From a virus, in IMG/VR virus record IMGVR_UViG_3300030294_000096, positions 1-37,981 of that record: a DNA stretch of 37,981 bases. One strand, given 5' to 3'. Shown in pieces: positions 4,992-34,557 of the stretch. The position numbers were made by a program, and so were the translations under genes. The notes under the pieces were generated by a model. The model did not search any database. It was not told where the DNA came from and saw nothing but the letters and a program-made list of their open reading frames with translations. The first letter of the stretch is position 1, and each line of letters starts with the position of its first letter.

Positions 4992-5024
4992 AAAAAAAGA
5001 CTCAATTAAATTGAGTCTTTTTTT
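4992..5024. terminator. Bidirectional hairpin terminator
   Basis: The stem AAAAAAAGACTCAATT / AATTGAGTCTTTTTTT lies between the convergent cold-shock gene and the ankyrin gene ending at 5023. It touches the stop codon of the latter. Confidence 0.88.
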
Positions 5025-5517
5025 ATATATTGAATTTATCAGCAGTTTGAGATAATAAATAATCTTTATATTTTTCTGGATAATCTTTTATTATTTTTTT
5101 CTTAGTTTCTGGTTTCAAATAATCAAAAAATGTAATATTAACTGTTGTGCCTTTATCATTCCAATTAGCATTTGAATCAATTAATAATTTCAAAATATCA
5201 TAATACACCACTTCGTTCAATTCAATAATTGAGCTATAAAATCCAGCAAGTAATAATGGTGTCCAACCTTGACTTGTATTATCTTGAAAATTTACATCAG
5301 CGCCTTTTTCAATTAAAATCTTAACAATATTTATATCAGCATCTTTATTAATAGAATATATCAAAGAAGTATATCCTTTATCATTTATATAATTAACATC
5401 AGCACCTTTATTTATTGCGCTTACTACATTTTCTATATCTGAGTCTATACAAGCCTCAATTAATTCTTCGTTTAAATCAATCTGATTGTTTTGTTCAAAA
5501 TTTTTTAAATATTTCAT
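5023..5517 (-). CDS. Tagged ankyrin-repeat cassette protein
   Basis: The protein has 164 residues. Its N-terminal tag is MKYLKNFEQNN and its C-terminus is TADKFNI. Ankyrin repeats are visible from about residue 17: ACIDSDIENVVSAINKGADV, then KGYTSLIYSINKDADINIVK followed by GADVNFQD, then GWTPLLLAG. It shares the YPEKYKDYLL segment near its end with other ankyrin cassettes. ATG overlaps the stop of the upstream ankyrin gene (ATGA). It is likely a protein-binding adaptor or decoy. The target is unknown. Confidence 0.9.
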   Translation of the reverse strand: MKYLKNFEQNNQIDLNEELIEACIDSDIENVVSAINKGADVNYINDKGYTSLIYSINKDADINIVKILIEKGADVNFQDNTSQGWTPLLLAGFYSSIIELNEVVYYDILKLLIDSNANWNDKGTTVNITFFDYLKPETKKKIIKDYPEKYKDYLLSQTADKFNI

Positions 5518-6038
5518 AAATTAAATTTGTCTGCATTTTTTTTCGTTAAATATATTTCATATTGTTTATGATATTTCTTTAATATATGGGATTTTACTTC
5601 TTCATTTTTTGATAAATACCAAAAAAAATCTTTTGAATAATCGACAGAAAAATGATGTTTAATATTCCAATCAGCTCCTGCTTTAATTAATTTTTCCATC
5701 ATTGATGTGAAATAATCACTGCTTGCACCAGTAAGTCCCATAGATGATAATATCAAAGCTGTTGTTCCATTTTCATCTTGATAATCTAAATTTGCTCCTG
5801 ATTTTATTAATTCATCAAAAACTTTTTCATATCTATTAATAATAGCAAATTGCAGAGCAGTTTTCTTACTTAATTGGTCTTGTAGATTTAAGTTTATTTG
5901 ACCAGATTTTATCATATTAATCATTTCATTTTCTCCTCTTATATTTAAATCTTTTTGTCTTACTAGATTTAACAAATCATAAGTATGGTATTGTTTTTCA
6001 TTGAATTTTAGTTCTTCGTATAATTTAATATGTTTCAT
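5514..6038 (-). CDS. Tagged ankyrin-repeat cassette protein
   Basis: The protein has 174 residues, starting MKHIKLYEE and ending NADKFNL. Ankyrin repeats lie around residues 50-125, with KKTALQFAIINRYEKVFDEL, then SGANLDYQDENGTTALILSS and AGADWNI. The GADWNI segment recurs in the ankyrin cassettes at 19251, 30227 and 32663. It is first in a two-gene minus-strand unit. An AT-rich element TTTAATATATAAAA (minus strand, 6041-6054) lies just before the start. Confidence 0.9.
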   Translation of the reverse strand: MKHIKLYEELKFNEKQYHTYDLLNLVRQKDLNIRGENEMINMIKSGQINLNLQDQLSKKTALQFAIINRYEKVFDELIKSGANLDYQDENGTTALILSSMGLTGASSDYFTSMMEKLIKAGADWNIKHHFSVDYSKDFFWYLSKNEEVKSHILKKYHKQYEIYLTKKNADKFNL

Positions 6039-6132
6039 AGTTTTATATATTAAAAAATAATTATTATTTTATTGAAATCAAGTTAAAAAAATACCTCACA
6101 TTTTTTATATATAGTTAAAATTAATTTTTAGT

Positions 6133-6444
6133 ATGAAAATAGAAAAATTCAATGAAAAGTCAGATAGCAGTACGGGAATATACGCGATTGTTAGCATACC
6201 TGAGGATAAACGTCAAATTAATTTTAATGATTTGTTGAAAGATGAATATTATATAAAATATAAAAAAGTTCATGAGAATGATGAAAAATCTTTAATTCAA
6301 TATTCAATTGAGCACTATCTTTTTGAGCAAGGATTATTAAAATTTAGTTATAAATTAGTTGATGAATCTGGTACTGAGGTAAAAATTGAAGAATTAGATA
6401 AAAGGATAGAACTTAACAATAACACAAACAAATTTAATATATGA
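6133..6444 (+). CDS. Tagged cassette protein, MKIEKFNE variant
   Basis: The protein has 103 residues. Its start MKIEKFNEK is a variant of the family tag, closer to the F-x-E end of the T4 capsid-targeting sequence, and it ends NTNKFNI. The core has mixed alpha/beta character with no known domain. It is the first gene of an unbroken chain of overlapping cassettes to 9478. A TTTTTTATATATAG element sits at 6101-6114. Confidence 0.8.
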   Translation: MKIEKFNEKSDSSTGIYAIVSIPEDKRQINFNDLLKDEYYIKYKKVHENDEKSLIQYSIEHYLFEQGLLKFSYKLVDESGTEVKIEELDKRIELNNNTNKFNI

Positions 6445-6929
6445 AATATATAAAAACATTTGAATCAAATAAGCAGGAAAAAAAGATTACTCTAATTAAT
6501 TTAGATGATGATTCAAAAACAATAAAAGTCACTCAAGGTGAACTTGATGATTTAATAGAAGATGATTTTACTATTCTATATGATGATGAAGAAATAGAAT
6601 ATGATTCAAACCATCCAGATGAATGGAGATATGATTCAGATGAAGAAGATGATATAAAAAATGCATTAAAAACATATAGAAGTATGATAAAAATGTATTC
6701 ATTAGGTAGTAAAAAAATGATAAAAGTCACAAAAGAAGAACTTGATGTGTTAATAGAAGAAGATTTTACAATTCTGTATGATGATGAAGAAATAGGGCAT
6801 GATCCAAGTCTACCAAATGAATGGAGATATGATGATGATGACGAAGAAGAAATAACTAGATGGTTGGAATTATATAGAATATTAAAAGATCCAGAAAAAG
6901 TTAATCAAACAATAAAATTCAACTTATGA
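6441..6929 (+). CDS. Tagged acidic cassette protein with internal duplication
   Basis: The protein has 162 residues, MKYIKTFESN to TIKFNL. It contains two copies of an acidic unit of about 55 residues: the first has IKVTQGELDDLIEDDFTILY then DEWRYDSDEE, the second IKVTKEELDVLIEEDFTILY then NEWRYDDDDE. The duplication is recent enough to be obvious. The strongly negative charge is reminiscent of DNA-mimic proteins, but no such family is recognised. Confidence 0.87.
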   Translation: MKYIKTFESNKQEKKITLINLDDDSKTIKVTQGELDDLIEDDFTILYDDEEIEYDSNHPDEWRYDSDEEDDIKNALKTYRSMIKMYSLGSKKMIKVTKEELDVLIEEDFTILYDDEEIGHDPSLPNEWRYDDDDEEEITRWLELYRILKDPEKVNQTIKFNL

Positions 6930-7432
6930 AATATATAAAGAGATTTGAATATTTAAATCAAGATGATGCATTATTTTATATGGAAGTAACTCCAGAAGTT
7001 GCACTTAGCTATTGTAGTGGTAATCCTCTACCTTCCAATGACCCTATTCCATTAAACTATCAAATATTAGAATATGCATTTGGAATGCCAATTGGCGGTG
7101 CAACAGATGAAGAATACGATGAAGTTGCTCAGGAGAATTGCGATTGGTATGATGGAACATTACAATCAATAAAAGATGGCATCAATACTGTCAACTCTTT
7201 TGATTTTGCAAGTGAAGGACCAGATTTTGTATTGGGCATAAATTATGAAGGAAACTTAGAAGATGAATCAGCAGAATTTGGTGATCTTTATATTTTTTTT
7301 AAAGATTACAGAAAGATTGAACTGATTTTTGTTTATGATTGTAAAAAGGAGAAATATTATAGTCCACACATATTCAAAAATCTTTATCGTACTCCTGGAT
7401 TATACAATAATATAGATAAATTTAACTTATGA
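6926..7432 (+). CDS. Tagged cassette protein, unknown core
   Basis: The protein has 168 residues, MKYIKRFEYLN to NIDKFNL. The core carries scattered acidic residues and predicted strands (DFVLGINYEG, LYIFFKDYRKIELIFVYDC), and contains three Cys that do not form a zinc motif. It overlaps its neighbours by 4 bases on both sides. No domain is recognised. Confidence 0.82.
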   Translation: MKYIKRFEYLNQDDALFYMEVTPEVALSYCSGNPLPSNDPIPLNYQILEYAFGMPIGGATDEEYDEVAQENCDWYDGTLQSIKDGINTVNSFDFASEGPDFVLGINYEGNLEDESAEFGDLYIFFKDYRKIELIFVYDCKKEKYYSPHIFKNLYRTPGLYNNIDKFNL

Positions 7433-7782
7433 AATATATAAAAAAATTTGAAAAATTTGAAAATATTCTAAAAATAGGAGATTATGTTTTGGCTATATCA
7501 AAGGCTAATGATGTGATTTTCACCAGTTATATTAACAATTCAATCGGTGAAGTAATTAAAATTACTCCTGTATATTCTAAAAATGAAGGAAATAAATATA
7601 AAGTATACGATGATATTGATATTAGATATTATGGTGTACCAAAAAGTGAAATTGATTTGTTTACAAAAGAAAAAAAGCATAACTCATATAAAATAAAATT
7701 TCCTTCGTATATGATTTATAAATTTTCAGAAAATAAAGAAGAATTAGAAATTGAAATAAACGCAAATAAATTTAACTTATGA
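7429..7782 (+). CDS. Tagged GDYVL barrel-like cassette protein
   Basis: The protein has 117 residues. After the tag MKYIKKFEKFE comes ILKIGDYVLAIS, a small-barrel signature, then IGEVIKITP and YKVYDDIDIRYYGVP. It ends NANKFNL. It is the first of four consecutive paralogues (7429-8748) that share the motif order GDYVL, a central (N/S)xxGxI segment, a YENIP-like segment and a helical end. The four probably arose by tandem duplication. Confidence 0.85.
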   Translation: MKYIKKFEKFENILKIGDYVLAISKANDVIFTSYINNSIGEVIKITPVYSKNEGNKYKVYDDIDIRYYGVPKSEIDLFTKEKKHNSYKIKFPSYMIYKFSENKEELEIEINANKFNL

Positions 7783-8090
7783 AATATATAAAAAAATTCG
7801 AACAGAATATAGATTTACCAGAAAGAGGTGATTATGTATTAATGAATAGTTATGGAATATCTGAAGTTGAATATTTTGTAACTCATAATTATGGAGTATA
7901 TCTTAATGCTTATATTGATAAATTGACTAAAGATCCAAAAATTAGAGTTAGATATGAAAATATACCAGGCAACATAGCTTTGTTTTTTCATGATGACACA
8001 ATAACATTTGATATGGAGTTATTAGTTGCTTATGGTAAAACAATAGAAGAGTTAGAAATGAAATTAAAAGCAAATAAGTTTAACTTATGA
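7779..8090 (+). CDS. Tagged GDYVL barrel-like cassette protein
   Basis: The protein has 103 residues. The tag MKYIKKFEQN is followed by PERGDYVLMNS. RVRYENIPGNIALFF is close to VKYENIPENIKNFF of the next gene, showing recent common origin. It ends KANKFNL. A short beta-barrel adaptor is the likely fold. The partner is unknown. Confidence 0.86.
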   Translation: MKYIKKFEQNIDLPERGDYVLMNSYGISEVEYFVTHNYGVYLNAYIDKLTKDPKIRVRYENIPGNIALFFHDDTITFDMELLVAYGKTIEELEMKLKANKFNL

Positions 8091-8416
8091 AATATATTAA
8101 AAAATTTGAATTGAATACAAATATACCTGAGATTGGTGATTATATATTGACAGTATATGACATAAAAAATGATAGAAATACTTCTATTAATCAGTTAAAA
8201 AAATTCATAGATAATACCATAGGAATAGTAGTAGATGACTTAGAATTTGGTGTACATAATAATTATGTTCGTGTAAAATATGAAAACATTCCTGAAAATA
8301 TAAAGAATTTTTTTATAGATGATAGAAAGAGATTTAATATTGTTAGCATAGTTGATTATGATAAAGATTTAGAAACATTAAAATATAAAATTGAAGCAAA
8401 TAAATTTAACATATGA
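8087..8416 (+). CDS. Tagged GDYVL barrel-like cassette protein
   Basis: The protein has 109 residues. The tag MKYIKKFEL is followed by PEIGDYILTVYD, then NTIGIVVDDLEFG and VKYENIPENIKNFF. It ends IEANKFNI. It is a paralogue of the genes on both sides, with 4-base overlaps at each end. Confidence 0.86.
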   Translation: MKYIKKFELNTNIPEIGDYILTVYDIKNDRNTSINQLKKFIDNTIGIVVDDLEFGVHNNYVRVKYENIPENIKNFFIDDRKRFNIVSIVDYDKDLETLKYKIEANKFNI

Positions 8417-8748
8417 AATATATAAGGAAGTTTGAAGAAAAAAATAGTGAACCAAAGGAAGGAGATTATGTATTAATGAATTCTACAATGATGAATCCTA
8501 ATCTAAATGAATTTATTGATAATGAAGTTGGTAAAATCGTAAAAATTGATGATAAACGTGGTTTCATATCAGTAGAAGTTGAATATGAAAATATTCCTAT
8601 GGAAATTGCAAGCTTATTTGGATATAATGATTATAAAAATCATGAAAATACAGGAATAAAAGTTTTTTTAATGAGTAGTATAATTGAATTTTCTGATAAC
8701 AAAACAGATTTAGAATATAAAATAAACGCAAGAAAATTTAACTTATGA
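8413..8748 (+). CDS. Tagged GDYVL barrel-like cassette protein
   Basis: The protein has 111 residues. The tag MKYIRKFEEKN is followed by PKEGDYVLMNS, NEVGKIVKIDD and VEYENIPMEIASLFG. It ends NARKFNL. It is the fourth of the tandem paralogues. The GDYVLMNS segment is identical to that of the gene at 7779, so these two may share the most recent duplication or a recombination tract. Confidence 0.86.
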   Translation: MKYIRKFEEKNSEPKEGDYVLMNSTMMNPNLNEFIDNEVGKIVKIDDKRGFISVEVEYENIPMEIASLFGYNDYKNHENTGIKVFLMSSIIEFSDNKTDLEYKINARKFNL

Positions 8749-9083
8749 AACATATAAAAAAATTTGAAATATATAAACAGTGGGATAATGAAAATAGATA
8801 TTGGGAAGTGACATTGTTACGTCCATATTTTATTTTATCATTAAGAAAAATCGGAGTTCCAAATGATTTAATTGCGGAATGGGATGAACAGTACTTAAAT
8901 GAAGATCATATTGTATACGTATATAAAGAAGAAATTAAAAATTATGATAGTTTGATTGATGACTATGATATTATAACTGAATGGAGATTGCAGCTAGATA
9001 AAGATGACAGAGATAAATATATATTTGGAGGTAGAATTAAACTTAGAGAATTTGAAATAGATGCAGATAAATTTAACTTATGA
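8745..9083 (+). CDS. Tagged cassette protein, unknown core
   Basis: The protein has 112 residues, MKHIKKFEIY to DADKFNL. The core is rich in aromatic and acidic residues (QWDNENRYWEVTLLRPYF). It has no GDYVL motif, so it is not a member of the preceding family despite its position. It overlaps the following interrupted gene by 4 bases. Confidence 0.82.
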   Translation: MKHIKKFEIYKQWDNENRYWEVTLLRPYFILSLRKIGVPNDLIAEWDEQYLNEDHIVYVYKEEIKNYDSLIDDYDIITEWRLQLDKDDRDKYIFGGRIKLREFEIDADKFNL

Positions 9084-9478
9084 GATACATAAAAACTTTT
9101 GAAAGTTCTTTAAATCAAGAAGAAAAAGAAACATTACTAAATAATACTGCTTATTATTTAGAAGAAGTTATACCAAAAATAGAAGGATTTTAAGAATGCG
9201 TATGGTCAGCCACTGATTGGATTGATTATGATGTTGATAACGATGTTGAATTTACATTTTATTTTGATACTATGTATTTTGAAGATGAGGAAGATTTTGA
9301 AAAATTTGAAGAGTTCTTAACTGAAAACAATTTAGATAATGATATAAAAGAGAGTTATTATGACATAAAAGATAATTTTATTAATAAAAGAATGTTAAGC
9401 ATGTCAATAAAAATACCAATAAAAAAGGTGATTGAATTAGGAGAGTTATATAATTCTATGCATAAATTTAACATATAA
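9080..9478 (+). pseudogene. Tagged cassette gene interrupted by an in-frame TAA
   Basis: The reading frame opens with MRYIKTFESS at the standard overlapping junction and stops at TAA in 9191-9193 after 37 codons. The same frame then continues without interruption (GF-stop-ECVWSATDWIDYD) to the family C-terminus MHKFNI at 9478. A single base substitution in an AAA, GAA or CAA codon would explain this. An internal ATG at 9272 could still express the last 68 residues. TAA is used as a normal stop elsewhere, so recoding is unlikely. Confidence 0.8.
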
Positions 9479-9792: not shown

Positions 9793-10308
9793 ATGAAATA
9801 CTTAAAAACTTTTGAGAAACAAAAAGAAAAGGAAAAAGAAGATATTATATTATATAAAAATGAGGATTTTACAATTACAGTAAATGATAAAGGTAATATG
9901 ACTTATTTTAATGATTATATGTCAAAATCTCCAATTTATGGTATAATGTTTGAAATAAAAAACAAATCTAAATATTTAAATGATACTGAATTACGAGATA
10001 TTAAAATAACAGAATCAGAAAAATACTTTGCTATATTATCATTAGATCCAAAATATGAAAGTAATAGGGTTAAATATCATTCCTCTATTATAAATAACTT
10101 CTTGATAAGAAATGGAAATAAAATAGAACTATCAGATATTTCAGATAAAGCTTACACAGCATTGAATGAAAGATATTTTCCTATGATAGAAGATATTATA
10201 AAAAAATCTGAAACAATTGGTGATTTAATTGATTATTTTAAAGTTTTATATGATGAAATAACAGAGAATTTACCTACCTATTTGGCTACATCAAAATTTA
10301 ACATATAA
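9793..10308 (+). CDS. Tagged cassette protein, unknown core
   Basis: The protein has 171 residues, MKYLKTFEKQKE to ATSKFNI. The C-terminal signature is kept although a terminator, not another cassette, follows. This shows that KFNI is under selection, or inherited, at the protein level and is not just a by-product of junction overlap. The core is alpha/beta with no recognised domain. Confidence 0.83.
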   Translation: MKYLKTFEKQKEKEKEDIILYKNEDFTITVNDKGNMTYFNDYMSKSPIYGIMFEIKNKSKYLNDTELRDIKITESEKYFAILSLDPKYESNRVKYHSSIINNFLIRNGNKIELSDISDKAYTALNERYFPMIEDIIKKSETIGDLIDYFKVLYDEITENLPTYLATSKFNI

Positions 10309-18161: not shown

Positions 18162-18512
18162 ATGAAATACTTAAAAACATTTGAATCATTATTATATAGT
18201 GATTATAAGGCTGGAGATTACGTACTACTTGATTTAATTAAAATAAAATCTAATAACAAAGATAATGATTATGAAATGGATGAAGTTGATGAATATGGCA
18301 ATTCTATACCAATTGATGAATTTGCATTAATAAAGGATAAGACTGTTGAATTAAATAATGGACTTTATTTATATAGTGTAACTTTTTATAATTATAATAA
18401 TGAAAAAAATGATTCTTATGGTGTTGAGTCAGATGAAATAATAAGAAAGCTAAATACAAATGAGATAGAAGAGTTCAACAGAAAAAAAGAAGCATTGAAA
18501 TACAACATATGA
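18162..18512 (+). CDS. Tagged GDYVL barrel-like cassette protein
   Basis: The protein has 116 residues. I chose the ATG at 18162 because it gives the tag MKYLKTFESLL; a longer in-frame start at 18135 would add an atypical leader. KAGDYVLLDLIKI follows at residues 17-29. It ends ALKYNI. It is the first gene of the overlapping chain to 21071. TTTAATATATATAG lies only 5 bases before the start, so the message might be nearly leaderless. Confidence 0.83.
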   Translation: MKYLKTFESLLYSDYKAGDYVLLDLIKIKSNNKDNDYEMDEVDEYGNSIPIDEFALIKDKTVELNNGLYLYSVTFYNYNNEKNDSYGVESDEIIRKLNTNEIEEFNRKKEALKYNI

Positions 18513-18943
18513 AATATTTAAAAAAATTTGAAAATAGATTAACTAACGTATTTAAATCTAAAGATGTAGATATGTGGGATGAATATATAGAAACTGAGTT
18601 AGAAACCGAATATGGATATAATAAACTCATTGGGGCTGTACATGCTGGAAATCTTAAAAGATTTGAATATTTATTACCAATATATAAAAATAAAATAAAT
18701 AATATTTATGATGGAAAGAATGTATTAATTGAGGTTATAATACGAGATATTGATTTATATGAAAAAAAGAAAATGATTGAATTATTATTGGATAATGGAG
18801 TTAATTATAAGCTCGAGTTTGGAGGTGATACATTTTATGATTTGATTACTAATGATAAATTAAAAAAATGGTTTGACGATAAATATCCAGATATAGTAAA
18901 AGAGCTTAATTTATATAAAAATACAAATAAATATAATTTATGA
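18509..18943 (+). CDS. Tagged, degenerate ankyrin-type cassette protein
   Basis: The protein has 144 residues, MKYLKKFENRL to NTNKYNL. LIGAVHAGNLKRFEYLLPIY, then MIELLLDNGVNYKLEFGG, has ankyrin spacing without the full consensus. WFDDKYPDIVKELNLYKN corresponds to the KYPxxYKEYL end region of the other ankyrin cassettes, supporting a common origin. Confidence 0.82.
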   Translation: MKYLKKFENRLTNVFKSKDVDMWDEYIETELETEYGYNKLIGAVHAGNLKRFEYLLPIYKNKINNIYDGKNVLIEVIIRDIDLYEKKKMIELLLDNGVNYKLEFGGDTFYDLITNDKLKKWFDDKYPDIVKELNLYKNTNKYNL

Positions 18944-19254
18944 AATATATAAAAACATTTGAAAAATTAGATAGAAAAATAAAAAAAGGAGATTATGCTA
19001 TAATCGATTTTAAAACAACTAATCCTGGAGTTACAGAATTTTTTCAAAATAATATTAGTAAAATTATCGAAGTAAGAGGAATATGGATTAAATTTGGTTA
19101 TAAATATGTACCAGAAGAAATCAAGGAATATTTTTATAAATCTAGAGTATATTATATATATCAAATAGAGTTAAACTTAGAAGATGTTTACTCTTATGCT
19201 ATCTCAAAAGAAAAATTAGAATTAGAATTATCAACAAAAAAATTCAACATATGA
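18940..19254 (+). CDS. Tagged GDYV barrel-like cassette protein
   Basis: The protein has 104 residues. The tag MKYIKTFEKLD is followed by KIKKGDYAIIDF, NISKIIEVRGIWIKFGY and KYVPEEIKEYF, matching the motif order of the genes at 7429-8748. It ends STKKFNI. Confidence 0.84.
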   Translation: MKYIKTFEKLDRKIKKGDYAIIDFKTTNPGVTEFFQNNISKIIEVRGIWIKFGYKYVPEEIKEYFYKSRVYYIYQIELNLEDVYSYAISKEKLELELSTKKFNI

Positions 19255-20227: not shown

Positions 20228-20697
20228 AACACATTAAAACGTTTGAAAATGCATTCACTGACATATTTAAAAAAAGGAAGAAATTACCTCACGAAGTTAT
20301 TAATTTTGGTGATGTATTAACTAAATTTATAGAGAAAAATATTGATATGGAATGGGATGTTTATTCAAATACATATGAAAGTAGTAATAAAAAATATTAT
20401 GATGTTGTAAGAATTTTTATTGACCCACATGATATAGATGATGCTGCTGAAGTTTTGGAATTGCATTATAATTATGATAGAAATTCTATTTTATATTGTT
20501 ACCATCCAATAATGAATTTTATGGAAGATATTAAAGACTATTTAGGAAATATTGTAAAGAATAGTTCTATTGAAGATGTTTCATCTGCTGGAGATAATAG
20601 ATATTGGATACCACTAGATAAATTACCTGAAATAATAAATAAAATAAATAGCTCTGATTTTGATTATTATAAGTCGACAAAAAAATTTAACATATGA
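20224..20697 (+). CDS. Tagged cassette protein, unknown core
   Basis: The protein has 157 residues, MKHIKTFENAF to STKKFNI. The alpha/beta core contains DVVRIFIDPHDIDDAAEVLE and a final segment RYWIPLDKLPEIINKI. It is not recognised. It is coupled to both neighbours through ATGA overlaps. Confidence 0.8.
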   Translation: MKHIKTFENAFTDIFKKRKKLPHEVINFGDVLTKFIEKNIDMEWDVYSNTYESSNKKYYDVVRIFIDPHDIDDAAEVLELHYNYDRNSILYCYHPIMNFMEDIKDYLGNIVKNSSIEDVSSAGDNRYWIPLDKLPEIINKINSSDFDYYKSTKKFNI

Positions 20698-21071
20698 AAT
20701 ATATAAAAAAATTTGAACGTAAAAAGAATGAATTTTATACAATTAAAAATGAATTAATTAATGCTGTATATCATGGTAATTATTCTAAAACTAAAAAATT
20801 ATTAGATTCTGGCTTTGATGTTAATAGTAATATAGATGGAAGAAATTCTGCATTATTATATGCTTCTTATAAAGGAGAATGGAATATTTTATTTCTAATA
20901 TTAAAATATAATCCTGATTGGTACATAAAAGATATTTCAAAATATGATTTTATTGACTATATAAATGATCATATAGATGGAGATAAAGTAATAGAAAAAA
21001 TAACAAAAAAATATCCTGTTAAATACAATGAGTATTTAATGATAAAAAAATCAGAAAAATTTAATTTATAA
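20694..21071 (+). CDS. Tagged ankyrin-repeat cassette protein (short)
   Basis: The protein has 125 residues, MKYIKKFERKK to SEKFNL. Repeats: ELINAVYHGNYSKTKKLLDS, then GFDVNSNIDGRNSALLYASY. It shares with other ankyrin cassettes an end module KKYPVKYNEYLM. It closes the chain of overlapping cassettes; the next start is 2 bases beyond its stop. Confidence 0.88.
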   Translation: MKYIKKFERKKNEFYTIKNELINAVYHGNYSKTKKLLDSGFDVNSNIDGRNSALLYASYKGEWNILFLILKYNPDWYIKDISKYDFIDYINDHIDGDKVIEKITKKYPVKYNEYLMIKKSEKFNL

Positions 21072-21073
21072 AT

Positions 21074-21379
21074 ATGAAAGTAGAAAAATTTAATGAGCAT
21101 AATTTTACAACATTTGATGATGATATTGTATATGCAGGTAAATCTAAATACCCAGTAGGCACCAAAATTAAATTTAAAGATGATGGTGAGTATTTAACTG
21201 GTACTTTGACACATCCATTTGGTTATGGTGATGTTGGTGTATTCTTAGATGAAAAAGGTAAATATAAATATGATAGGGTATCACTAAAAAACAATGAATA
21301 TACAGTAATTGATGATGATGTTGATAAATTCATTAAAGATCACAATTTCAAAAAAGATATAAAAAAATTCAATTTATAA
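21074..21379 (+). CDS. Tagged cassette protein, MKVEKFNE variant
   Basis: The protein has 101 residues starting MKVEKFNEH. The core PVGTKIKFKDDGEYLTGTLT, then GVFLDEKGKYKYDRVSLKNN, predicts a small SH3-like barrel. The end IKDHNFKKDIKKFNL is shared with the ankyrin gene at 19251. The stop codon lies inside a hairpin that is repeated immediately downstream. Confidence 0.82.
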   Translation: MKVEKFNEHNFTTFDDDIVYAGKSKYPVGTKIKFKDDGEYLTGTLTHPFGYGDVGVFLDEKGKYKYDRVSLKNNEYTVIDDDVDKFIKDHNFKKDIKKFNL

Positions 21380-24775: not shown

Positions 24776-24789
24776 TTTTCAGTTTCACT

Positions 24790-26010: not shown

Positions 26011-26538
26011 ATGAAAAATATAAAAAGTTTTGATAAATACAATGAAGATGTACTAACTGATGGTTTTACTCCTGAGAATGCAAGGTATAATGCAGGTATA
26101 AAAGCAAATAGAATAATATATCAACTTAAAAATTTATTATTACCTGTTGGTAAATTAACTGAGCAAGTTGTCACAAGGTCAATTGAATCAATAAATTCAT
26201 TAAATAGAATTATTAATGATGAAATTATTGAAGATGATGCTATGATAACTCAATTAAAAAAATCAGATACTTCAAATACAATATTTGATGTTATAAAAAA
26301 TATTGAAGTTAATCAAAATGGTATAAATAGATCTACAAATAAATACTCAGCTACAATAAATACTTTGTGGTTAGGAGGAAAAAAATATGATTTAATAGTA
26401 AAGCCATTATCATTTTGGTTGAATATGGCAAAAAAAGACAGAGAAACAGAAAATAAAATATCCAATCAACTATGTGGTTGGATAAATAGTAATATAAATT
26501 TAACTATTGAATCATTAAATAAAATAACACACAAATGA
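26011..26538 (+). CDS. Tagged-type protein, MKNIKSFDKYNE variant
   Basis: The protein has 175 residues, beginning MKNIKSFDKYNED, which resembles a capsid-targeting sequence ending in YNE. The remainder is largely helical (NRIIYQLKNLLLPVGKLTEQ). It lacks the KFNL end. It overlaps the membrane HExxH gene by 4 bases, so the two may act together. The function is unknown. Confidence 0.8.
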   Translation: MKNIKSFDKYNEDVLTDGFTPENARYNAGIKANRIIYQLKNLLLPVGKLTEQVVTRSIESINSLNRIINDEIIEDDAMITQLKKSDTSNTIFDVIKNIEVNQNGINRSTNKYSATINTLWLGGKKYDLIVKPLSFWLNMAKKDRETENKISNQLCGWINSNINLTIESLNKITHK

Positions 26539-27080
26539 GCAAACCAATTAAAATAATAGGTATAATATTATTTAGTTTTATACTTATTTTTATAGCATAT
26601 GAAATATTCATACCAACTAAAGATTATCCTTTTAGTAAAATTGAAATTGTTAATTATCATCATCTATATAACTTAACAAATAGAACTTATCTAGATACAA
26701 TTGTAGAATCAGGATTACAATCACTTAAAATTGATACTGTTACTGTTGTTATTAAAAATATTGATAAATCATCAATAGTAATTAATGGCGAAGATATTGA
26801 TTTGAAAGCATATATAGTAGTTAATAACGATACATATTATATATTTATTGGTGACTATAGTAGAAATGAAAGTATTACAATATTATCTCATGAATTAATT
26901 CATTTAAGACAATATTATGACAAAATGTTATTAATTAGTAGAACAGGAGTTTATTTATGGCTTGGTGATGTTATAGATATATCAAATATGGATTATAATC
27001 AAAGACCTTGGGAAATAGAAGCATTTGATAATCAATCAGATAATGCAAATGCAATGAAATATATTTTATATAAATTATAA
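26535..27080 (+). CDS. Membrane-anchored HExxH (zincin-like) protein
   Basis: The protein has 181 residues. An N-terminal membrane helix (about residues 5-23, IKIIGIILFSFILIFIAYEI) is followed by an outside or periplasmic domain. SHELIHLRQYYD near residue 118 contains HExxH, the zinc-binding and catalytic motif of zincins. The downstream glutamate in WEIEAFDNQS is well placed as third ligand. The short length suggests a minimal peptidase. A role at the envelope is likely; the substrate is unknown. Confidence 0.83.
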   Translation: MSKPIKIIGIILFSFILIFIAYEIFIPTKDYPFSKIEIVNYHHLYNLTNRTYLDTIVESGLQSLKIDTVTVVIKNIDKSSIVINGEDIDLKAYIVVNNDTYYIFIGDYSRNESITILSHELIHLRQYYDKMLLISRTGVYLWLGDVIDISNMDYNQRPWEIEAFDNQSDNANAMKYILYKL

Positions 27081-27422
27081 GTTGAATTTTTTTGATGCAT
27101 TAATTATATTATAAAACTCTTCTGTTGTAAATTTATTTGGAAAAAAGTATTTACTATCTCCGTCATCTTTATCACAAATAATATATCCTTTTTTATCTCT
27201 AAGTGTTATTATATCTCCATCACCTATTTTATAAACATTATTATAAGATCTCTTACCATTATATTCTGAATATTTTAAAATAGAATCAATAATATATATC
27301 TCACCATATTTCAAATAATTACTCTGAAGTCCAATATATATAATTTCATCACCTATTTTTAAATCATTTAAGTAATCAGGATTATCATGTTGTACTTCAT
27401 ATATTTTAAAATTTGTTATCAT
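27075..27422 (-). CDS. GDxI barrel-like cassette protein, MITNFKIYE tag
   Basis: The protein has 115 residues starting MITNFKIYEVQ, a tag variant. KIGDEIIYIGLQ is the barrel motif, and GDGDIITLRDKKGYIICDKDD continues the sheet. It ends NASKFN with a final L. It converges on the HExxH gene with a 6-base overlap and no terminator between. Confidence 0.82.
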   Translation of the reverse strand: MITNFKIYEVQHDNPDYLNDLKIGDEIIYIGLQSNYLKYGEIYIIDSILKYSEYNGKRSYNNVYKIGDGDIITLRDKKGYIICDKDDGDSKYFFPNKFTTEEFYNIINASKKFNL

Positions 27423-27772
27423 ATATTAAATTTATTAGTTTGTGTTAAAAATTCTAATTTTGATTTATCATCAGATATATGAATCAATTCTTCTAATGAA
27501 AAAGACATGGCATTTTTATATTTTTTGCTATAATCTATTTCGCTATGATAAATTTGATATGATTCTAAATAATCAGGAATATAATCAAATTGAACTATAA
27601 ATCTATCCCAACGATATTTAATATCAATAATTTCTATTATCTGTCCTATATTACTTAATGTAAAACTATTTAGTTCAGTAAAATCAATACTTTCACATAT
27701 AACATAATCTCCAATAGATGGTAGTATTGATGATTTTTTATTTTTTTCATATATTTTAAAATCTGTTATCAT
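27419..27772 (-). CDS. Tagged GDYV barrel-like cassette protein, MITDFKIYE tag
   Basis: The protein has 117 residues. MITDFKIYEKN is followed by PSIGDYVICESIDF, NIGQIIEIIDI and VQFDYIPDYLESYQ, the motif order of the family at 7429-8748. It ends QTNKFNI. Overlaps on both sides are ATGA. Confidence 0.84.
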   Translation of the reverse strand: MITDFKIYEKNKKSSILPSIGDYVICESIDFTELNSFTLSNIGQIIEIIDIKYRWDRFIVQFDYIPDYLESYQIYHSEIDYSKKYKNAMSFSLEELIHISDDKSKLEFLTQTNKFNI

Positions 27773-28068
27773 ACATTAAAATTGTTGGATTTATTAATTA
27801 ATTTCAGTCTATCTTCTAATATTTTTCTAACTGATGAGTATTTGTATACATCTTTTTTATCTATCCAAAAACCATCTTCATGATAATAATCTTTAAAATC
27901 AATTTTATATTGTGATTTACTTTTATTTATTATTTTAAAAATATTATTGCTTATTTTGGTTTTATATTGAATATCATAATTTATTCCTTTAAGAACAGGT
28001 ATAACATAATAATCAACAGGTATTTCTATCTGGTTATTAACAAATTCATATTTTTTTATATATTTCAT
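27769..28068 (-). CDS. Tagged cassette protein, distant barrel-like
   Basis: The protein has 99 residues, MKYIKKYEFVN to SNNFNV, a slightly divergent C-terminus. VDYYVIPVLKG sits where GDYVL is found in relatives, followed by NNIFKIINKSKSQYKIDF. It is the first of three minus-strand cassettes. TTTAATATATAG (minus, 28101-28112) lies 33 bases upstream. Confidence 0.8.
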   Translation of the reverse strand: MKYIKKYEFVNNQIEIPVDYYVIPVLKGINYDIQYKTKISNNIFKIINKSKSQYKIDFKDYYHEDGFWIDKKDVYKYSSVRKILEDRLKLINKSNNFNV

Positions 28069-29822: not shown

Positions 29823-30230
29823 ATGAAATATTTAAAAAAATATGAAATGTTAAACAAATTAGACACATCAGATAATCCTATATTTATAGAATTTATGATT
29901 AATTTCATAACATCTTTAGATTATGACTTAACCACAAATTACAATAAAAAATACTCTAGAAATGAGATATTTTTTTATAACAAAGATATAAATTCTGAGG
30001 GTTTAAAATTTTGTATTGAAATAACAAATGATGAATTAATTTTTAAAAAATACCATAATAATTTTAAGATTATTGAAGAATATTTAGAAACTATCAATGG
30101 ATTAAATTTAATAAATATTGATCATCACATATACAACTTTAAGATATCAGGAAATACTCTAGATATCGAAGAACAGATAACAAAAAAGAATTTTGATATG
30201 TTTAGAGAAGCAAATAAATTTAATTTATGA
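29823..30230 (+). CDS. Tagged cassette protein, unknown core
   Basis: The protein has 135 residues, MKYLKKYEMLN to EANKFNL. The core pattern (FIEFMINFITSLDYDLTTNY, then FFYNKDINSEGLKFCIEITN) resembles the gene at 344-748 in layout, with long helix, sheet and C-terminal helix, but similarity is weak. It starts 4 bases after the PPK2 gene stop, so the two are probably cotranscribed. Confidence 0.82.
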   Translation: MKYLKKYEMLNKLDTSDNPIFIEFMINFITSLDYDLTTNYNKKYSRNEIFFYNKDINSEGLKFCIEITNDELIFKKYHNNFKIIEEYLETINGLNLINIDHHIYNFKISGNTLDIEEQITKKNFDMFREANKFNL

Positions 30231-30568
30231 AATATTTAAAAAAGTTTGAATCTAAAGAAGTAGATTTATTTAATGCTATTGTAAATGACAACACAAAAAG
30301 AGTTGAATATTTAATTAGACTTAATGCTGATATAAACATTCAAGATGCTGAAGGTAGAACTCCATTATTTTATGCAGCAAATCATGATTTTATGAGTATT
30401 GTTAATATACTTATTGAAGCAGGAGCGGATTGGAATATTATTAACAACAAAGGATATGATTTTACATATTTATTAAGTGATAAACAATTTGATTATATTA
30501 TGAAAAAATATCCTGATGAATATAAAGAATATTTAATGAAAAAAACAGCAAACAAATTTAACTTATGA
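30227..30568 (+). CDS. Tagged ankyrin-repeat cassette protein (short)
   Basis: The protein has 113 residues, MKYLKKFESKE to TANKFNL. Repeats: DLFNAIVNDNTKRVEYLIRL, then NADINIQDAEGRTPLFYAAN, then IVNILIEAGADWNI. The end KKYPDEYKEYLMKKTANKFN is almost identical to that of the gene at 33175, pointing to recent exchange or duplication. Confidence 0.91.
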   Translation: MKYLKKFESKEVDLFNAIVNDNTKRVEYLIRLNADINIQDAEGRTPLFYAANHDFMSIVNILIEAGADWNIINNKGYDFTYLLSDKQFDYIMKKYPDEYKEYLMKKTANKFNL

Positions 30569-30996
30569 ACCATTTAAAAATATATGATAATTATAAAGAT
30601 AAAATGAATTCAAAGAACAAATTCAATAATATGATAAATGAGTATATACCAGGATATTACATGATATATAAATCTAATACTTATCATTGGAAGCAACATA
30701 GATACAATGAATATATAGTATTATGTAGAATTATAAATCCAGAAGTTTTTGATGAAGTGGATCTAAGATTAAACATAGATATTCTATCTTATTTTTGTGA
30801 ATTAGAACAACATGAATTAAGGGAAGATGAAAAAATAAAGACTGGAAAACAAATAATAAATCCAAATCATTCAACGTTTGAAAGATTATTTTTGTCATCG
30901 TCATTAAAAACATCTCAAGATAAATTTGAAGAATTGAAAGAAACTACATATTATCAATGGGAATTAAATAAAGTCACAGATAAATTTAACTTATGA
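30565..30996 (+). CDS. Tagged cassette protein, MNHLKIYDNYK variant
   Basis: The protein has 143 residues, ending VTDKFNL. The core has MNEYIPGYYMIYKSNTYHWK-like aromatic segments and a C-terminal helix. It is not recognised. Both junctions are 4-base overlaps. The tag is more divergent than in neighbours. Confidence 0.8.
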   Translation: MNHLKIYDNYKDKMNSKNKFNNMINEYIPGYYMIYKSNTYHWKQHRYNEYIVLCRIINPEVFDEVDLRLNIDILSYFCELEQHELREDEKIKTGKQIINPNHSTFERLFLSSSLKTSQDKFEELKETTYYQWELNKVTDKFNL

Positions 30997-31379
30997 AAAC
31001 ATTCAATCAATACAATGAATCTATAAAAAATAAACATTTTCCTATATATTTTAGAAGATATTATGAATCAGGTAGATATAAAATATCAGATATATATTAC
31101 GACATTGAACAAGCAAATAAATATAGTATTGAATATGTTCTATTTAATAATACCACTAAAGGAGATGAGTTCTTTTACTTATATTTATTTCCATGTAATG
31201 AAAATGAATCTAAAATTATTAGTTCTGAGTTAATAGGTATGTTTAATCTATCAAGTATATTTAATGAAGACTTAACAACAGAAGAAAATATAGAATTAAT
31301 AAAAACATCAAAAAATGCGAATATTATAAATTTAGAAGATGTAAATTTAATAATAAATTCAAATAAATTTAATATATGA
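30993..31379 (+). CDS. Tagged cassette protein, MKTFNQYNE variant
   Basis: The protein has 128 residues, MKTFNQYNESI to INSNKFNI. It is paralogous to the next gene: both have a strand-rich core, a long polar loop and the end NxxIINxEDxxxIINSNKFNI-like segment. The N-terminus is very similar to the T4 internal-protein targeting sequence MKTYQEFIAE. Confidence 0.83.
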   Translation: MKTFNQYNESIKNKHFPIYFRRYYESGRYKISDIYYDIEQANKYSIEYVLFNNTTKGDEFFYLYLFPCNENESKIISSELIGMFNLSSIFNEDLTTEENIELIKTSKNANIINLEDVNLIINSNKFNI

Positions 31380-31807
31380 AAACATTTATACAGTTCAATG
31401 AAACTGAAAATTATGGAGAACCAATGTACAGTAATACAAATAGAATAACTCTTAACCTTTATTCTTATAATGACGAAGAAAATGATTTTCCTCTTTTAGA
31501 ACGAGATATCAAAAAATTAGAAGAAAATAATATTTATTATATTATAATTAGTACAACAGACAATTATATTAACTCTACACAATTTCAAACAATGTTTAAA
31601 ATTTATGCATTACCAAAAAATAAAGAACAGAGAGATATAACTTATTATAATATGAATTTTTCTTATAATACTAAAATTAACATAGAATACAATGGTGAAA
31701 ATTTAGATGAAGTTTTAGATGCAATTAAAAAAAGAAATAAAAATTTTTCAATCATAAATAAAGAAGACTTATATGTTATTATAAATTCAAATAAATTTAA
31801 TATATGA
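31376..31807 (+). CDS. Tagged cassette protein, MKTFIQFNE variant
   Basis: The protein has 143 residues, MKTFIQFNETEN to INSNKFNI. It is paralogous to the preceding gene (shared end INKEDLYVIINSNKFNI) and, more weakly, to the next. The core predicts a sheet (NIYYIIISTTDN, QFQTMFKIYALP). The function is unknown. Confidence 0.83.
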   Translation: MKTFIQFNETENYGEPMYSNTNRITLNLYSYNDEENDFPLLERDIKKLEENNIYYIIISTTDNYINSTQFQTMFKIYALPKNKEQRDITYYNMNFSYNTKINIEYNGENLDEVLDAIKKRNKNFSIINKEDLYVIINSNKFNI

Positions 31808-32163
31808 AAACATATCAACAATTTAATGAAATGAGCAATGTTGGATGTACTATATTTTTCAAAGTATATTTTAAATTTGAAAATGTGTATAAACAAATTG
31901 AGATATTAGATGAAAATAGAATAGATTATGATATATCTTATCATAATAAATTCATTAAAATAGATGCTTATGCTTATTCTATAAGTGAGTATAATTTTCT
32001 TATATCAATTGAATTCAAAATAAATAAAAAATCACAAGAACTAATAAATCCAAATATGTCACTTGATAAAATTAGAAGTATTGTAAAATCAGACAAAGGT
32101 TGGACGCCAACAAGTAAAGAAGAATTACCATACATTAATGATATAAATAAATTCAACTTATGA
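31804..32163 (+). CDS. Tagged cassette protein, MKTYQQFNE variant
   Basis: The protein has 119 residues starting MKTYQQFNEMSN, the closest match in this window to the capsid-targeting sequence of T4 internal proteins II and III, including the F-x-E that the T4 head protease cuts after. It ends DINKFNL. The core is strand-rich (GCTIFFKVYFKFENVYKQIE). Confidence 0.83.
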   Translation: MKTYQQFNEMSNVGCTIFFKVYFKFENVYKQIEILDENRIDYDISYHNKFIKIDAYAYSISEYNFLISIEFKINKKSQELINPNMSLDKIRSIVKSDKGWTPTSKEELPYINDINKFNL

Positions 32164-32666
32164 AATATATAAAAAGATTTGAAAGTATAATAACAGAATT
32201 GAATTACTCAAGTAAAGGATTAACTTCTTTACCTGAGTTGCCTGATACATTAAAGAATTTGGGATGTCATCATAATAAATTAAGATATCTACCAGAATTA
32301 CCAACTACATTAGAAGAATTGTTTTGTGGCGATAATGAGTTAAAAAAATTGCCAACTTTACCAAACACAATAACAAATTTAATGATTCATCATAATGATT
32401 TGACAGAATTGCCAGATCTACCAGATTCATTGATAAATTTTTCATGTGGGCATAATAATTTAACTGAAATACCAAAATTACCAAATAATTTAGTATATTT
32501 TTTATGTGATAATAATAATTTATCTGAATTACCAGAAATGCCAGAAACTGTAACTCAATTTAGTTGTAAGTATAATAATTTACCATATGAAGATTTGAAT
32601 GGATATTGGGATTGGTTTTATGATAGAAATCCAGAAAGAAAACAAGCAAAAAAATTCAACTTATGA
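32160..32666 (+). CDS. Tagged leucine-rich repeat cassette protein
   Basis: The protein has 168 residues, MKYIKRFESII to AKKFNL. Six leucine-rich repeats of 20-21 residues fill residues 14-140, with pattern LPxLPxxLxxLxCxxNxLxx (for example LPELPTTLEELFCGDNELKK). This is the bacterial type also seen in secreted effectors such as IpaH, but no enzymatic domain follows. It is a protein-interaction module; the target is unknown. Confidence 0.93.
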   Translation: MKYIKRFESIITELNYSSKGLTSLPELPDTLKNLGCHHNKLRYLPELPTTLEELFCGDNELKKLPTLPNTITNLMIHHNDLTELPDLPDSLINFSCGHNNLTEIPKLPNNLVYFLCDNNNLSELPEMPETVTQFSCKYNNLPYEDLNGYWDWFYDRNPERKQAKKFNL

Positions 32667-33178
32667 GATATTTAAAAAAATTTGAAAAATATAATGCATC
32701 TTTAGATTTAAATTATATTTTAGAAGATGATGTATATAGTGATTCAGATGCAATAAAATTATTAAAAAAAGTGAAATATGCTATTGACAATGATTGTGTT
32801 ATTGATAATATTAATATACATTGGATGGAAAGAACTCCTTTAATTACATGCGCTGTTTTAGACTGTCATATAAAAACCCAGTCTAAATATAGAAATATAT
32901 TTGAGCAAATAGCAAAAGAACTAATTAATTCAGGAGCTAATATAAATCATATAGATAAAGATAACAGAAGTGCTTTAATATGGGCTACAGATAGAGGACA
33001 TTTTGATGTAATGGAACTATTAATTGAAAATGGCGCAGATTGGAATATTATGGATGTATTCCATCATGAATTTCATGAATATTTGAGTGATGAACATTTT
33101 GAAAAAATTATTCATAAATATCCAGAACAATATGAATTGTATAACATGAAAAACAACACGAACAAATTCAATTTATGA
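32663..33178 (+). CDS. Tagged ankyrin-repeat cassette protein
   Basis: The protein has 171 residues, MRYLKKFEKYN to NTNKFNL. Ankyrin repeats at residues 50-135: ERTPLITCAVLDCH, then SGANINHIDKDNRSALIWAT and DVMELLIENGADWNIMD. It carries the shared end module KYPEQYELYNMKN. Confidence 0.91.
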   Translation: MRYLKKFEKYNASLDLNYILEDDVYSDSDAIKLLKKVKYAIDNDCVIDNINIHWMERTPLITCAVLDCHIKTQSKYRNIFEQIAKELINSGANINHIDKDNRSALIWATDRGHFDVMELLIENGADWNIMDVFHHEFHEYLSDEHFEKIIHKYPEQYELYNMKNNTNKFNL

Positions 33179-33666
33179 AACATATAAAAACATATACTCA
33201 GAAAGAATTGGATGATAATTTGTTGAAATATTCAGCAAAACAGGCATCTTTGCAAAAAGTAAGAGAATTGATAACAGATGGAGCTAACGTTAATTGTTTT
33301 GATCGTATCAGATATAACACGCCATTAATTAACGCATCACAACAACTAAATTATAGTACAATTAAATTGTTAATAGAAAATGGTGCTGATATAAATTTAG
33401 TAAATAAAAACAATAAAAATTGTATATTTTATATTGTTAATCAAAACACATATACTTATACTAAATATAAAAATAAAATTAATAATATAATTGATTTATT
33501 AATTTCATCTGGAATAAATTTAAACAATAAAAATAAAAGTGATGTTGATATTTTTGATAATATTCAAGAATCAAATCCTTTTATTCTTCAATATATAATA
33601 GATAATTATCCAGAAGAATACAAAGAATATTTAATGAAAAAAACTGCAAACAAATTTAACTTATGA
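33175..33666 (+). CDS. Tagged ankyrin-repeat cassette protein
   Basis: The protein has 163 residues, beginning MKHIKTYTQKE, a diverged tag that has lost FE, and ending TANKFNL. Repeats: QASLQKVRELITDGANVNCF, then NTPLINASQQLNYSTIKLLI followed by NGADINLVNKNNKN. The last 15 residues equal those of the gene at 30227 (YKEYLMKKTANKFNL). Confidence 0.91.
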   Translation: MKHIKTYTQKELDDNLLKYSAKQASLQKVRELITDGANVNCFDRIRYNTPLINASQQLNYSTIKLLIENGADINLVNKNNKNCIFYIVNQNTYTYTKYKNKINNIIDLLISSGINLNNKNKSDVDIFDNIQESNPFILQYIIDNYPEEYKEYLMKKTANKFNL

Positions 33667-33983
33667 AATATATTAAAGCATATGAAACAGTTGAAGTCTG
33701 GAACGATAATAAAAGGATAAAAACATATGATTCATCAGAATACGAATTAAGTGATTATGTGATTTTGAATAAGCTTTATTTTCCAGATATAAGTGATAAT
33801 TACACATATCTTATAGGTAAAATAATAGACATTTCAGAAAATAATAATATGTTTTATTGGGTTATTAAATTACCAGATAAAAAAGTAGTATGGACTGGAG
33901 ATTATGAAATACATAAAACTATAACAAAAGAAGAATATGAAACGCTAGAAATAAAAAATTCATCAGATAAATATAATATATAA
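33663..33983 (+). CDS. Tagged SDYV barrel-like cassette protein
   Basis: The protein has 106 residues, MKYIKAYETVE to SDKYNI. ELSDYVILNKLYF fits the GDYVL position of the barrel-like family, followed by LIGKIIDISENNNMFYWVIK. It is the last of the overlapping chain; the next gene starts 5 bases later. Confidence 0.82.
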   Translation: MKYIKAYETVEVWNDNKRIKTYDSSEYELSDYVILNKLYFPDISDNYTYLIGKIIDISENNNMFYWVIKLPDKKVVWTGDYEIHKTITKEEYETLEIKNSSDKYNI

Positions 33984-33987
33984 GAAT

Positions 33988-34320
33988 ATGATAAGTAAAT
34001 ATAATGACTTCATTTTAGAAAATAAATATGAAGATGAACGTGAAGATGTCACAGGTAAAGTTAACAGAAGTAAAAAGTTATCGAAAGAAATGAAGGAAAA
34101 AATATTACCTTTGATTATTCCTGGTAATACAAAATACAAAAATGGTAGAATTTTTGATTTACATATACCTAAAATCGAAGGTAAATCATTTAAATTAGTA
34201 AGCTTAGGTGCAGATAAAAATGGATTTTTTGTATTTACTCATAGAGCAAGATGTAAATCTAAACCAAATATTGAAGATATTCCAAATAAAGATATTGAAT
34301 TTATTGAAACAACAGGATAA
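33988..34320 (+). CDS. Hypothetical protein, MISKYNDFILE start
   Basis: The protein has 110 residues. The start MISKYNDFILENKYEDE has the spacing of a capsid-targeting sequence (F-I-L-E) but is otherwise unlike the cassette tag. The end lacks KFNL. The core (KSFKLVSLGADKNGFFVFTH) is a predicted sheet with basic loops. No domain is recognised. Confidence 0.78.
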   Translation: MISKYNDFILENKYEDEREDVTGKVNRSKKLSKEMKEKILPLIIPGNTKYKNGRIFDLHIPKIEGKSFKLVSLGADKNGFFVFTHRARCKSKPNIEDIPNKDIEFIETTG

Positions 34321-34338
34321 TAAAATAATATATAGAAT

Positions 34339-34557
34339 ATGAAAATTAAAAAATTTAAAGAATTAAATGAAGCTGATACTAATCAGATACCAGGTACATC
34401 ATTAGATAAATATTATTCTTATTATAAAAGATGGTGTGATGAAAATGGATTTGAATATAATTTTAAAGATATATCAGAAGATGAAATTATTGAGATAGCA
34501 AAAAAATACGCTGATGATAATAATTTACCGAATATGACATATTACAGAAATGATTAA
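34339..34557 (+). CDS. Small hypothetical protein, MKIKKFKELNE start
   Basis: The protein has 72 residues. Tag-like MKIKKFKELNEAD, then a helical body (YYSYYKRWCDENGFEYNFKD, DEIIEIAKKYADDN). It lacks the KFNL end. AATAATATATAG lies immediately before the start. A terminator follows. Confidence 0.75.
   Translation: MKIKKFKELNEADTNQIPGTSLDKYYSYYKRWCDENGFEYNFKDISEDEIIEIAKKYADDNNLPNMTYYRND

Follow-up and report, generated by a model that had tools for sequence, protein, structure and literature searches.

Why should several dozen small phage proteins with different middles begin and end alike? The question is raised by a 37,981-nucleotide stretch of viral DNA (IMG/VR record IMGVR_UViG_3300030294_000096, positions 1 to 37,981; hereafter the window), in which small genes carry an N-terminal peptide of the type MKYIKKFE (the leader) and a C-terminal peptide of the type KFNL (the tail), and in which the tail of one gene and the leader of the next overlap at ATGA stop-start junctions. 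We find that the array and both of its end tags are well supported and that the protein ends are what is mainly conserved in it. The best explanation of the whole, to which we give a probability of about 0.58, is that these are interchangeable cassettes for head cargo, each bearing two address peptides.

Small genes with two shared ends

The entire window is contained at 100% identity in a 330,208-base IMG/VR contig, 3300029983_000007 (G001:259124-297104), of which G009 and G005 are syntenic relatives (DNA identity, roughly 80%); another contig, G013, gave the same matches as part of G001 and was excluded as an independent genome. A 1059-residue G001 protein matches 31 records among 50,697 phage records. 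The matches listed (30 of the 31) include metagenomic phages of 462-735 kb, with up to 37% identity over 99%; the protein also matches Lak phages of Prevotella, Sphingomonas phage PAU, Tenacibaculum phages pT24, PTm1 and PTm5, Chryseobacterium phage MA9V and Flavobacterium phage MaF61. Judged by these matches, the source is a very large phage related to the 462-735 kb metagenomic phages, the Lak phages and PAU.

Gene counts, which come from a simple longest-ORF caller (open reading frames, ORFs, of at least 50 amino acids), are approximate, and the caller placed the start of the gene at 344-748 wrongly; a tail was counted as [KRNS][FY]N[LIVM] at the protein end and a strict leader as the MKYIKKFE type. 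A first-pass annotation of the window had described about 38 proteins with both termini in common between 5023 and 34557. The sharing of termini is indeed far above chance, and the count comes down to 35 ORFs with a leader or a tail, 33 with a tail, 28 with a strict leader and 26 with both. Moreover, the set is wider than that span, as it includes a tagged gene at 344-748 and a total of 103 tailed genes among the 558 of G001, compared to 0.44 expected from internal residue frequency. Tailed genes are similarly abundant in G005 (64 of 436; 0.41 expected), G009 (80 of 386; 0.27 expected) and contig G012 (22 of 156; 0.17 expected).

Leader and tail occur together. In G001, 60 genes have both, 8 only the leader, 43 only the tail and 447 neither (Fisher 2.5e-43); the corresponding numbers are 40, 6, 24 and 366 in G005, 54, 5, 26 and 301 in G009, and 7, 3, 15 and 131 in G012. 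Tailed genes without a strict leader mostly have a variant of it: an aromatic-(x)-Glu or [IL]xE at residues 6-16 is found in 35 of 43 such genes in G001, 19 of 24 in G005, 17 of 26 in G009 and 10 of 15 in G012, compared to 70/447, 70/366, 45/301 and 23/131 of the untagged genes. A degenerate junction pattern yielded 36 exact stretches on 20 IMG/VR contigs, and a second pattern, with an MITNFK leader, added 4 more contigs.

The leader, the tail and the phage head

We propose that each protein consists of a core, often unique in kind, with a short address peptide at either end. The leader, M-K-x-[I/L]-x-x-[F/Y]-E (with variants such as MITNFKIFE, MKIKRFNE and MKTYQQFNE), would act like the capsid-targeting sequence of phage T4: it would draw the protein into the prohead's scaffold core, where the prohead protease would probably cleave it after a Glu. 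As a second address, the C-terminal K-[F/Y]-N-[L/I] would be bound by one shared partner, in the manner of a cargo-loading peptide. This partner would most likely be part of the head (shell, scaffold or portal), where we place it because proteins with a tail usually have a leader too. The proteins would then be packaged alongside the DNA and injected into bacteria. By this reasoning, packaging and injection have a somewhat better than even chance of being right; cleavage, the partner of the tail and recombination at junctions as the cause of swaps are further steps that we infer. The full two-part code, in which a cleavable capsid-targeting leader and a new docking tag, KFN[L/I], mark about 100 head-loaded injected proteins and the stop-start overlap allows seamless swaps, is more tentative and falls somewhat short of even odds. 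In encapsulins, a short C-terminal peptide common to unrelated cargo docks in a shell of the HK97 fold; the tail has another sequence, and its likeness to that cargo-loading peptide is one of analogy only.

T4 internal proteins are described as having a leader of 10-19 residues, 10 of which suffice for targeting; targeting depends mainly on residues 4 and 7 and processing on residues 8 and 10, and the gp21 protease cleaves after L/I-x-E (PMC9026906). T4 ipIII starts MKTYQEFIAE and ipI MKTFKEFTST, and a leader in the window reads MKTYQQFNE. Among 247 tailed genes of G001, G005 and G009, which were not selected for a leader, position 4 is one of ILFYVM in 203 and position 7 is F or Y in 193 (483 and 166 of 1133 untailed genes, respectively); both positions fit in 192 of 247 tailed compared to 91 of 1133 untailed genes, and position 8 is E in 173 of 247 compared to 76 of 1133. 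By these residue counts, positions 4 and 7 of the leader are like those of the T4 capsid-targeting sequence. The tagged proteins are also like T4 IPI, IPII, IPIII and Alt, which carry a capsid-targeting sequence cut by gp21, in being small and diverse with a common short leader, in having a Glu near the leader end and in forming polymorphic gene sets, as far as the T4 sets are described (PMC9026906, PMC3012670). They differ in that the tagged lineage has about 100 such genes, in long ATGA-joined arrays, compared to a few in T4, and in the added conserved C-terminal tag (T4 ipI ends NLL). What would be new is the great multiplication of T4-style head-cargo leaders in an exchangeable array, together with the second, C-terminal tag.

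A related leader is found around the head genes of PAU. We examined 192 kb of PAU (1-150,000 and 167,414-209,588) with a looser leader pattern than that used for G001, MK-x-[LI]-xx-L-[YF]-E, and found it in 18 of 240 called ORFs, 13 of which lie at 100-115 kb among 26 ORFs beside the portal, protease, scaffold and capsid genes. The scaffolding protein gp152 and four of the five genes labelled internal capsid protein start MK[TSG][LI]xxLYE, and in three of the five genes with this start LNE follows. PAU resembles the tagged lineage in having tandem small genes round the head module with the leader MK[TSG][LI]xxL[YF]E (gp142, gp152, gp154, gp199 and gp270), as well as in a distantly homologous large protein (gp264, 28% identity). 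The head ejection proteins of SPN3US and phiKZ offer a further parallel, since they are giant-phage head proteins that are cut after Glu and are thought to be targeted by propeptides; these propeptides are often >100 residues long, and the account available describes no shared C-terminal tag or array among them (PMC5694885).

Head genes were also sought on the tagged contigs and in their relatives. In the 735-, 642- and 462-kb relatives, the portal, gp21-type protease and capsid genes are clustered, and a gp21-type protease is present in PAU, PTm5, MA9V-2, the 735-kb phage and contig G035. Contig G030, in which 17 of 161 genes are tailed, has a portal gene (E 2.3e-186) near its end and a tagged gene (MKIAKFNE...KYNL) 1.4 kb past it. 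Likewise, a gene near the portal of the 642-kb phage has both leader and tail (MKYLSKYNMFIEQ...KFNI, L115:1781-2551). A leader just upstream of the portal occurs in 8 of 69 cases in the 642-kb relatives compared to 73 of 1638 genes, a weak excess. A profile of eight proteases matched short, weak segments in G005, G012 and G015, and the one Pfam gp23 match, in G012, was below threshold. Of eight candidates searched against PHROGs, one weakly matched 'major tail protein' and none a head family; with 113 G001 proteins, the 25 commonest of 75, and of 38, families matched included no head gene.

Several observations weigh against assigning the tagged proteins to the head. The commonest leader ends K-F-E or T-F-E, unlike the L/I-x-E site of T4 gp21, although variants ending INE, FNE, LNE and IFE are present and cleavage at TFE is reported for the 201phi2-1 vRNAP beta subunit (PMC5694885). 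The tagged contigs, which are fragments, yielded no complete prohead protease and, with home-made profiles, no full-length gene for the major capsid protein. Pfam PF03420 (gp21) matched 0 of 14 records, and the control was also without any match. A 150-residue ORF of G028, in which 14 of 177 genes are tailed, matches half of the protease profile (E 1.4e-19), but lacks the conserved GExxHP and SSR stretches. In PAU, 17 of the 18 leader genes end unlike the tail, the exception being gp199 (FFNM); gp70, which is labelled an internal capsid protein, has no leader; and the labels are the depositor's annotation in the record, for which the literature search turned up no paper that gives the grounds. 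Finally, of the 1587 ORFs in 80 loci around the capsid gene in the 642-kb phage's relatives, only 35 have the ending [FY]N[LIV], and by our own count 28 of the 35 are one orthologous gene. The tail looks rare elsewhere and multiplied in the tagged lineage, and nothing in the literature that the search covered was recognised as a shared C-terminal tag.

We also consider that the tags might direct the proteins to a place outside the virion, such as the host membrane, an infection compartment, or a chaperone or adaptor of the phage that binds many small effectors produced in infection, and that the likeness to T4 is partly coincidental. That no head gene was recognised in G001, so that its arrays cannot be placed beside one, speaks for this possibility, as do the leader without an L/I-x-E cut site, the PAU leader genes without a tail, and the fact that the tagged proteins of this lineage are known from genes alone, not from virions. 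However, the leader class of PAU marks the scaffold and labelled internal capsid genes, the tailed genes are enriched in T4-type residues at positions 4, 7 and 8, and the portal-proximal module of G030 has a tagged gene. On balance, we consider an address outside the virion unlikely, but deserving of real weight.

Short proteins that resemble a single segment of a capsid protein (about residues 34-98 or 403-556) or of a protease, with the remainder absent, were noted at G014 802-1185, L267 11087-11479, G001 245191-246072, G001 109735-110025 and G028 130227-130679. A short G014 gene (MKKFEEFIKED...) was considered as a first exon of a capsid gene and dropped, as neighbouring contigs have no capsid gene after it; a count of cleavage triplets in capsid proteins by regular expression was left unused, as it picked up an earlier site.

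Cores, junctions and the exchange of cassettes

With the ends removed, the 34 tailed genes of the window fall into 26 blastp groups, and the 103 of G001 into 67, the largest with 19 and 10 members. Pfam found ankyrin repeats in 7 and leucine-rich repeats (LRR) in 1 of 35 window proteins, with no or marginal matches for the remainder, and PADLOC gave ankyrin-type and marginal matches on tagged proteins. Thus the first-pass description of the cores as unrelated does not hold throughout, since the ankyrin genes and an SH3-like 'GDYV' barrel family are paralogs. Within the GDYV family, three types of leader are found, unlike one another in DNA and in length and nearly always together with the tail, and from this the leaders look interchangeable. 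In an AlphaFold model of a GDYV protein, leader residues 1-10 have a mean pLDDT of 44 and are followed by an ordered core; the tail extends the C-terminal helix (residues 97-109), with a pLDDT of 47 at the last residue. Foldseek returned 532 matches to the GDYV barrel, none with E<=0.001 (the best was weakly chromo/tudor-like), and tblastn with one GDYV protein found no match in the 50,697 phage records.

We considered that all of these might be ordinary paralogs of one or a few families, with diverged cores and with ends that are a remnant of ancestry. There are clear paralogs in the ankyrin and GDYV genes and in the two largest G001 groups, and the preference for AAC and ATA in tail codons, even without overlap, hints at descent of the tag DNA. 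We nevertheless regard common ancestry as improbable, given 67 and 26 blastp groups (although distant kinship can escape blastp), ankyrin, LRR and barrel folds that are unlikely to share one core, and a single core family that bears three different leaders.

The first-pass annotation had found a common junction in more than 20 places, and indeed the window has 26 ATGA junctions at which tail and next leader overlap, with about 40 conserved bases (about -16 to +23 around the shared ATG). All 26 open into a leader-type start; 25 of these belong to listed genes, and in one (9083) the frame is stopped after 37 codons. The motif AAATTTAACTTATGA, with <=3 mismatches, occurs 49 times compared to 24.5 expected (maximum in 100 shuffles, 34). 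Integrons are arrays of exchangeable gene cassettes with a common junction; the junction here differs in that it is coding on both sides and is conserved as protein.

That the protein ends are what is mainly conserved follows from tails that lie outside junctions and from the codons of orthologs. Tailed genes have no overlapping partner in 50 of 103 cases in G001, 30 of 64 in G005 and 33 of 80 in G009. As the first-pass annotation had pointed out, genes at cluster ends (5023, 10308 and 21379) keep KFNI, KFNI and KFNL, respectively, with no partner. At least one member is tailed in 66 ortholog pairs between G001 and G009 and in 50 between G001 and G005, and both members are tailed in 64 and 48 of these. 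In the 112 both-tailed pairs, the Asn codon is identical in 69 and synonymously different in 43; at the Phe/Tyr codon 35 changes are synonymous and 14 replace the residue, compared to 7 and 47 at the last tail codon and 18 and 61 at a codon just inside, the seventh from the end. Since Asn was part of the selecting pattern, we included the discordant pairs as well; the penultimate Asn is replaced in only 2 of 116 pairs, both of which have lost the whole tail, and in the other two of the four discordant pairs Gln replaces Lys and the Asn is kept. Nor is the junction motif a start signal, because 57 leader genes without a tail over their start match AAATTTAACTT upstream no better than untailed genes do (4.89 compared to 4.93 of 11). 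The GDYV family, with its three leader types and its nearly constant tail, likewise shows that it is mainly the protein ends that are kept. Thus the idea that the ends matter for the protein is upheld, as residues are held while tail codons change synonymously, but the view of the DNA junction as the primary object is not supported. A tail of this kind (an aromatic residue, Asn, and an aliphatic residue last) is what a shared binding partner would select, and the tail probably has a specific one.

Two results are not explained by selection on the protein alone. First, the tail Asn is encoded by AAC in 76 of 133 overlapping tails, in 13 of 44 that have a leader gene nearby and in 29 of 70 with no leader gene within 30 bases downstream, compared to a background of 1915/16756 (G001, G005 and G009). 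This excess goes beyond protein selection, and descent of the tag DNA or a termination-context effect is possible. Second, the last tail codon is kept at orthologous junctions of G001 and G009 more often than in shuffles (0.64 compared to 0.43, P = 0.006), but this is not so for G001 and G005 (0.29 compared to 0.47); the third position of the Phe codon is kept no better than in shuffles with either G009 (0.58 compared to 0.67) or G005 (0.71 compared to 0.73). Strong homogenisation of junctions was not seen, because orthologous junctions are more alike (identity 0.865 and 0.833) than non-orthologous ones (about 0.76); junctions are mostly inherited together with their genes.

We then compared gene content with the syntenic G009 and G005, and the comparison supports cassette exchange. 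Between orthologous tagged neighbours there are 7 one-sided indels relative to G009 and 9 relative to G005, a count that excludes 4 and 3 replacement events, respectively. The empty side is an exact -4 ATGA overlap in 11 of these 16 indels, compared to 4 of 93 other same-strand indels (Fisher 1.3e-8, a guide only, since 2 of the 11 clean indels insert an untailed gene and the locus 30993-31807 is counted against both genomes). Nor is the control a neutral one, as conserved tagged neighbours are ATGA-joined anyway (26 of 33 in G009 and 15 of 19 in G005); therefore, the result is that the empty site looks like an ordinary junction. In this sense, whole-gene gain and loss with breakpoints at junctions, as predicted from the window alone, is borne out, and homologous recombination at the junctions is a plausible cause. 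For instance, the single cassette at 8087..8416 (+ strand) is missing in G005, and that at 31376..31807 (+) is missing in G009, and in each case the two flanking genes form an ATGA junction; conversely, where 19251-19829 adjoins 19826-20227 in the window, G009 has a tailed gene between the two orthologs. Tailed genes do not clearly turn over faster than others: 12 of 75 tailed compared to 29 of 170 untagged genes have no syntenic ortholog in G009 (P = 1), and 46 of 95 compared to 112 of 321 in G005 (P = 0.02).

The view that the junction is selected as DNA or RNA (as a recombination site, a promoter or for translational coupling), with the protein ends as by-products, would account for the 40 conserved bases, the strong over-use of AAC, the last codon kept between G001 and G009 (not G005) and the exact restoration of junctions at gains and losses, but it is largely refuted by the synonymous pattern at Asn, and the third position of Phe, the 50 partnerless G001 tails and the 57 non-overlapped leader genes also oppose it, leaving it the least probable of the explanations.

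Should the head-cargo explanation be true, close to a fifth of the genes of a giant phage would be recognisable from sequence as candidate injected effectors, the end tags would allow the early weapons of huge phages to be listed, and foreign proteins could be loaded into phage heads by a second, C-terminal packaging handle, the tail, in addition to the T4 leader. Its partner should be findable, because the synonymous pattern means that the tail probably has a specific one. The array is also a natural case of gene swapping with a silent join, in which the last residues of one tag and the first residues of the other are encoded by one stretch of bases.

Layout of the window and neighbouring features

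The tagged genes lie in clusters on both strands. The first gene, at 344..748 (+), has a TTG start and reads MKYIKKYESS ... KYNL. Two ATGA-joined ankyrin genes (5514-6038 and 5023-5517) occupy 5023..6038 (-), the last of which, ending KFNI, is the partnerless gene mentioned above. They are followed by eight ATGA-joined genes at 6133..9083 (+), starting at 6133, 6441, 6926, 7429, 7779, 8087, 8413 and 8745, with GDYV-family members at 7429-8748 (+). The next cassette, 9080..9478 (+), is split by one in-frame stop: the leader (MRYIKTFESS..., 37 codons) starts at 9080, and the tail part, in the same frame, is the listed ORF 9272-9478 (+), which ends KFNI. A stand-alone gene at 9793..10308 (+) ends KFNI with no overlapping partner. 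Eight more genes, at 18162..21379 (+), start at 18162, 18509, 18940, 19251, 19826, 20224, 20694 and 21074, and the last ends KFNL, again with no partner. A gene at 26011..26538 (+) has a leader (MKNIKSFDKYNED) and no tail. Three tagged genes at 27075..28068 (-) include two with the variant leader MIT[ND]FKIYE, and ten at 29823..33983 (+), which start at 29823, 30227, 30565, 30993, 31376, 31804, 32160, 32663, 33175 and 33663, include three T4-like leaders (MKTFNQYNE, MKTFIQFNE and MKTYQQFNE).

Other shared motifs were seen in this lineage and a relative. MK[IV]R[TNK]GFV[SG]NSSSSSF lies at or close to the N-terminus of several proteins that are otherwise unlike, at G001 61590-63837 (L048) and G012 90555-95188. 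In the 735-kb phage LR756501 (L103), DPYGEE[DI]W recurs in several small proteins (e.g., of genes in 32022-33432 and 3065-3601), close to one terminus or the other, and is perhaps another tag in a related huge phage.

Between two tagged clusters, at 21810-22245 on the minus strand, the window encodes a GOLLD (giant ornate) RNA (RF02032, 243 bits, full model), which is also present in G009 (L037:3751-4173, 275 bits); homo-oligomers of GOLLD have been reported by recent cryo-EM (cryo-electron microscopy) (PMC12286853). Upstream of it on that strand, 22946-25239 is AT-rich and apparently non-coding, with an 83-base repeat unit in about 5 copies (a 67-base core in 8) and a second unit of 104-110 bases in up to 6 copies; these repeats are conserved in G005 and G009, and are possibly a long 5' part of the GOLLD RNA. 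Finally, 28175-29818 encodes a fusion of polyphosphate kinase 2 with a HAD domain (start MLKYDDYNKLNEAFF), which is 90-93% identical in both relatives.

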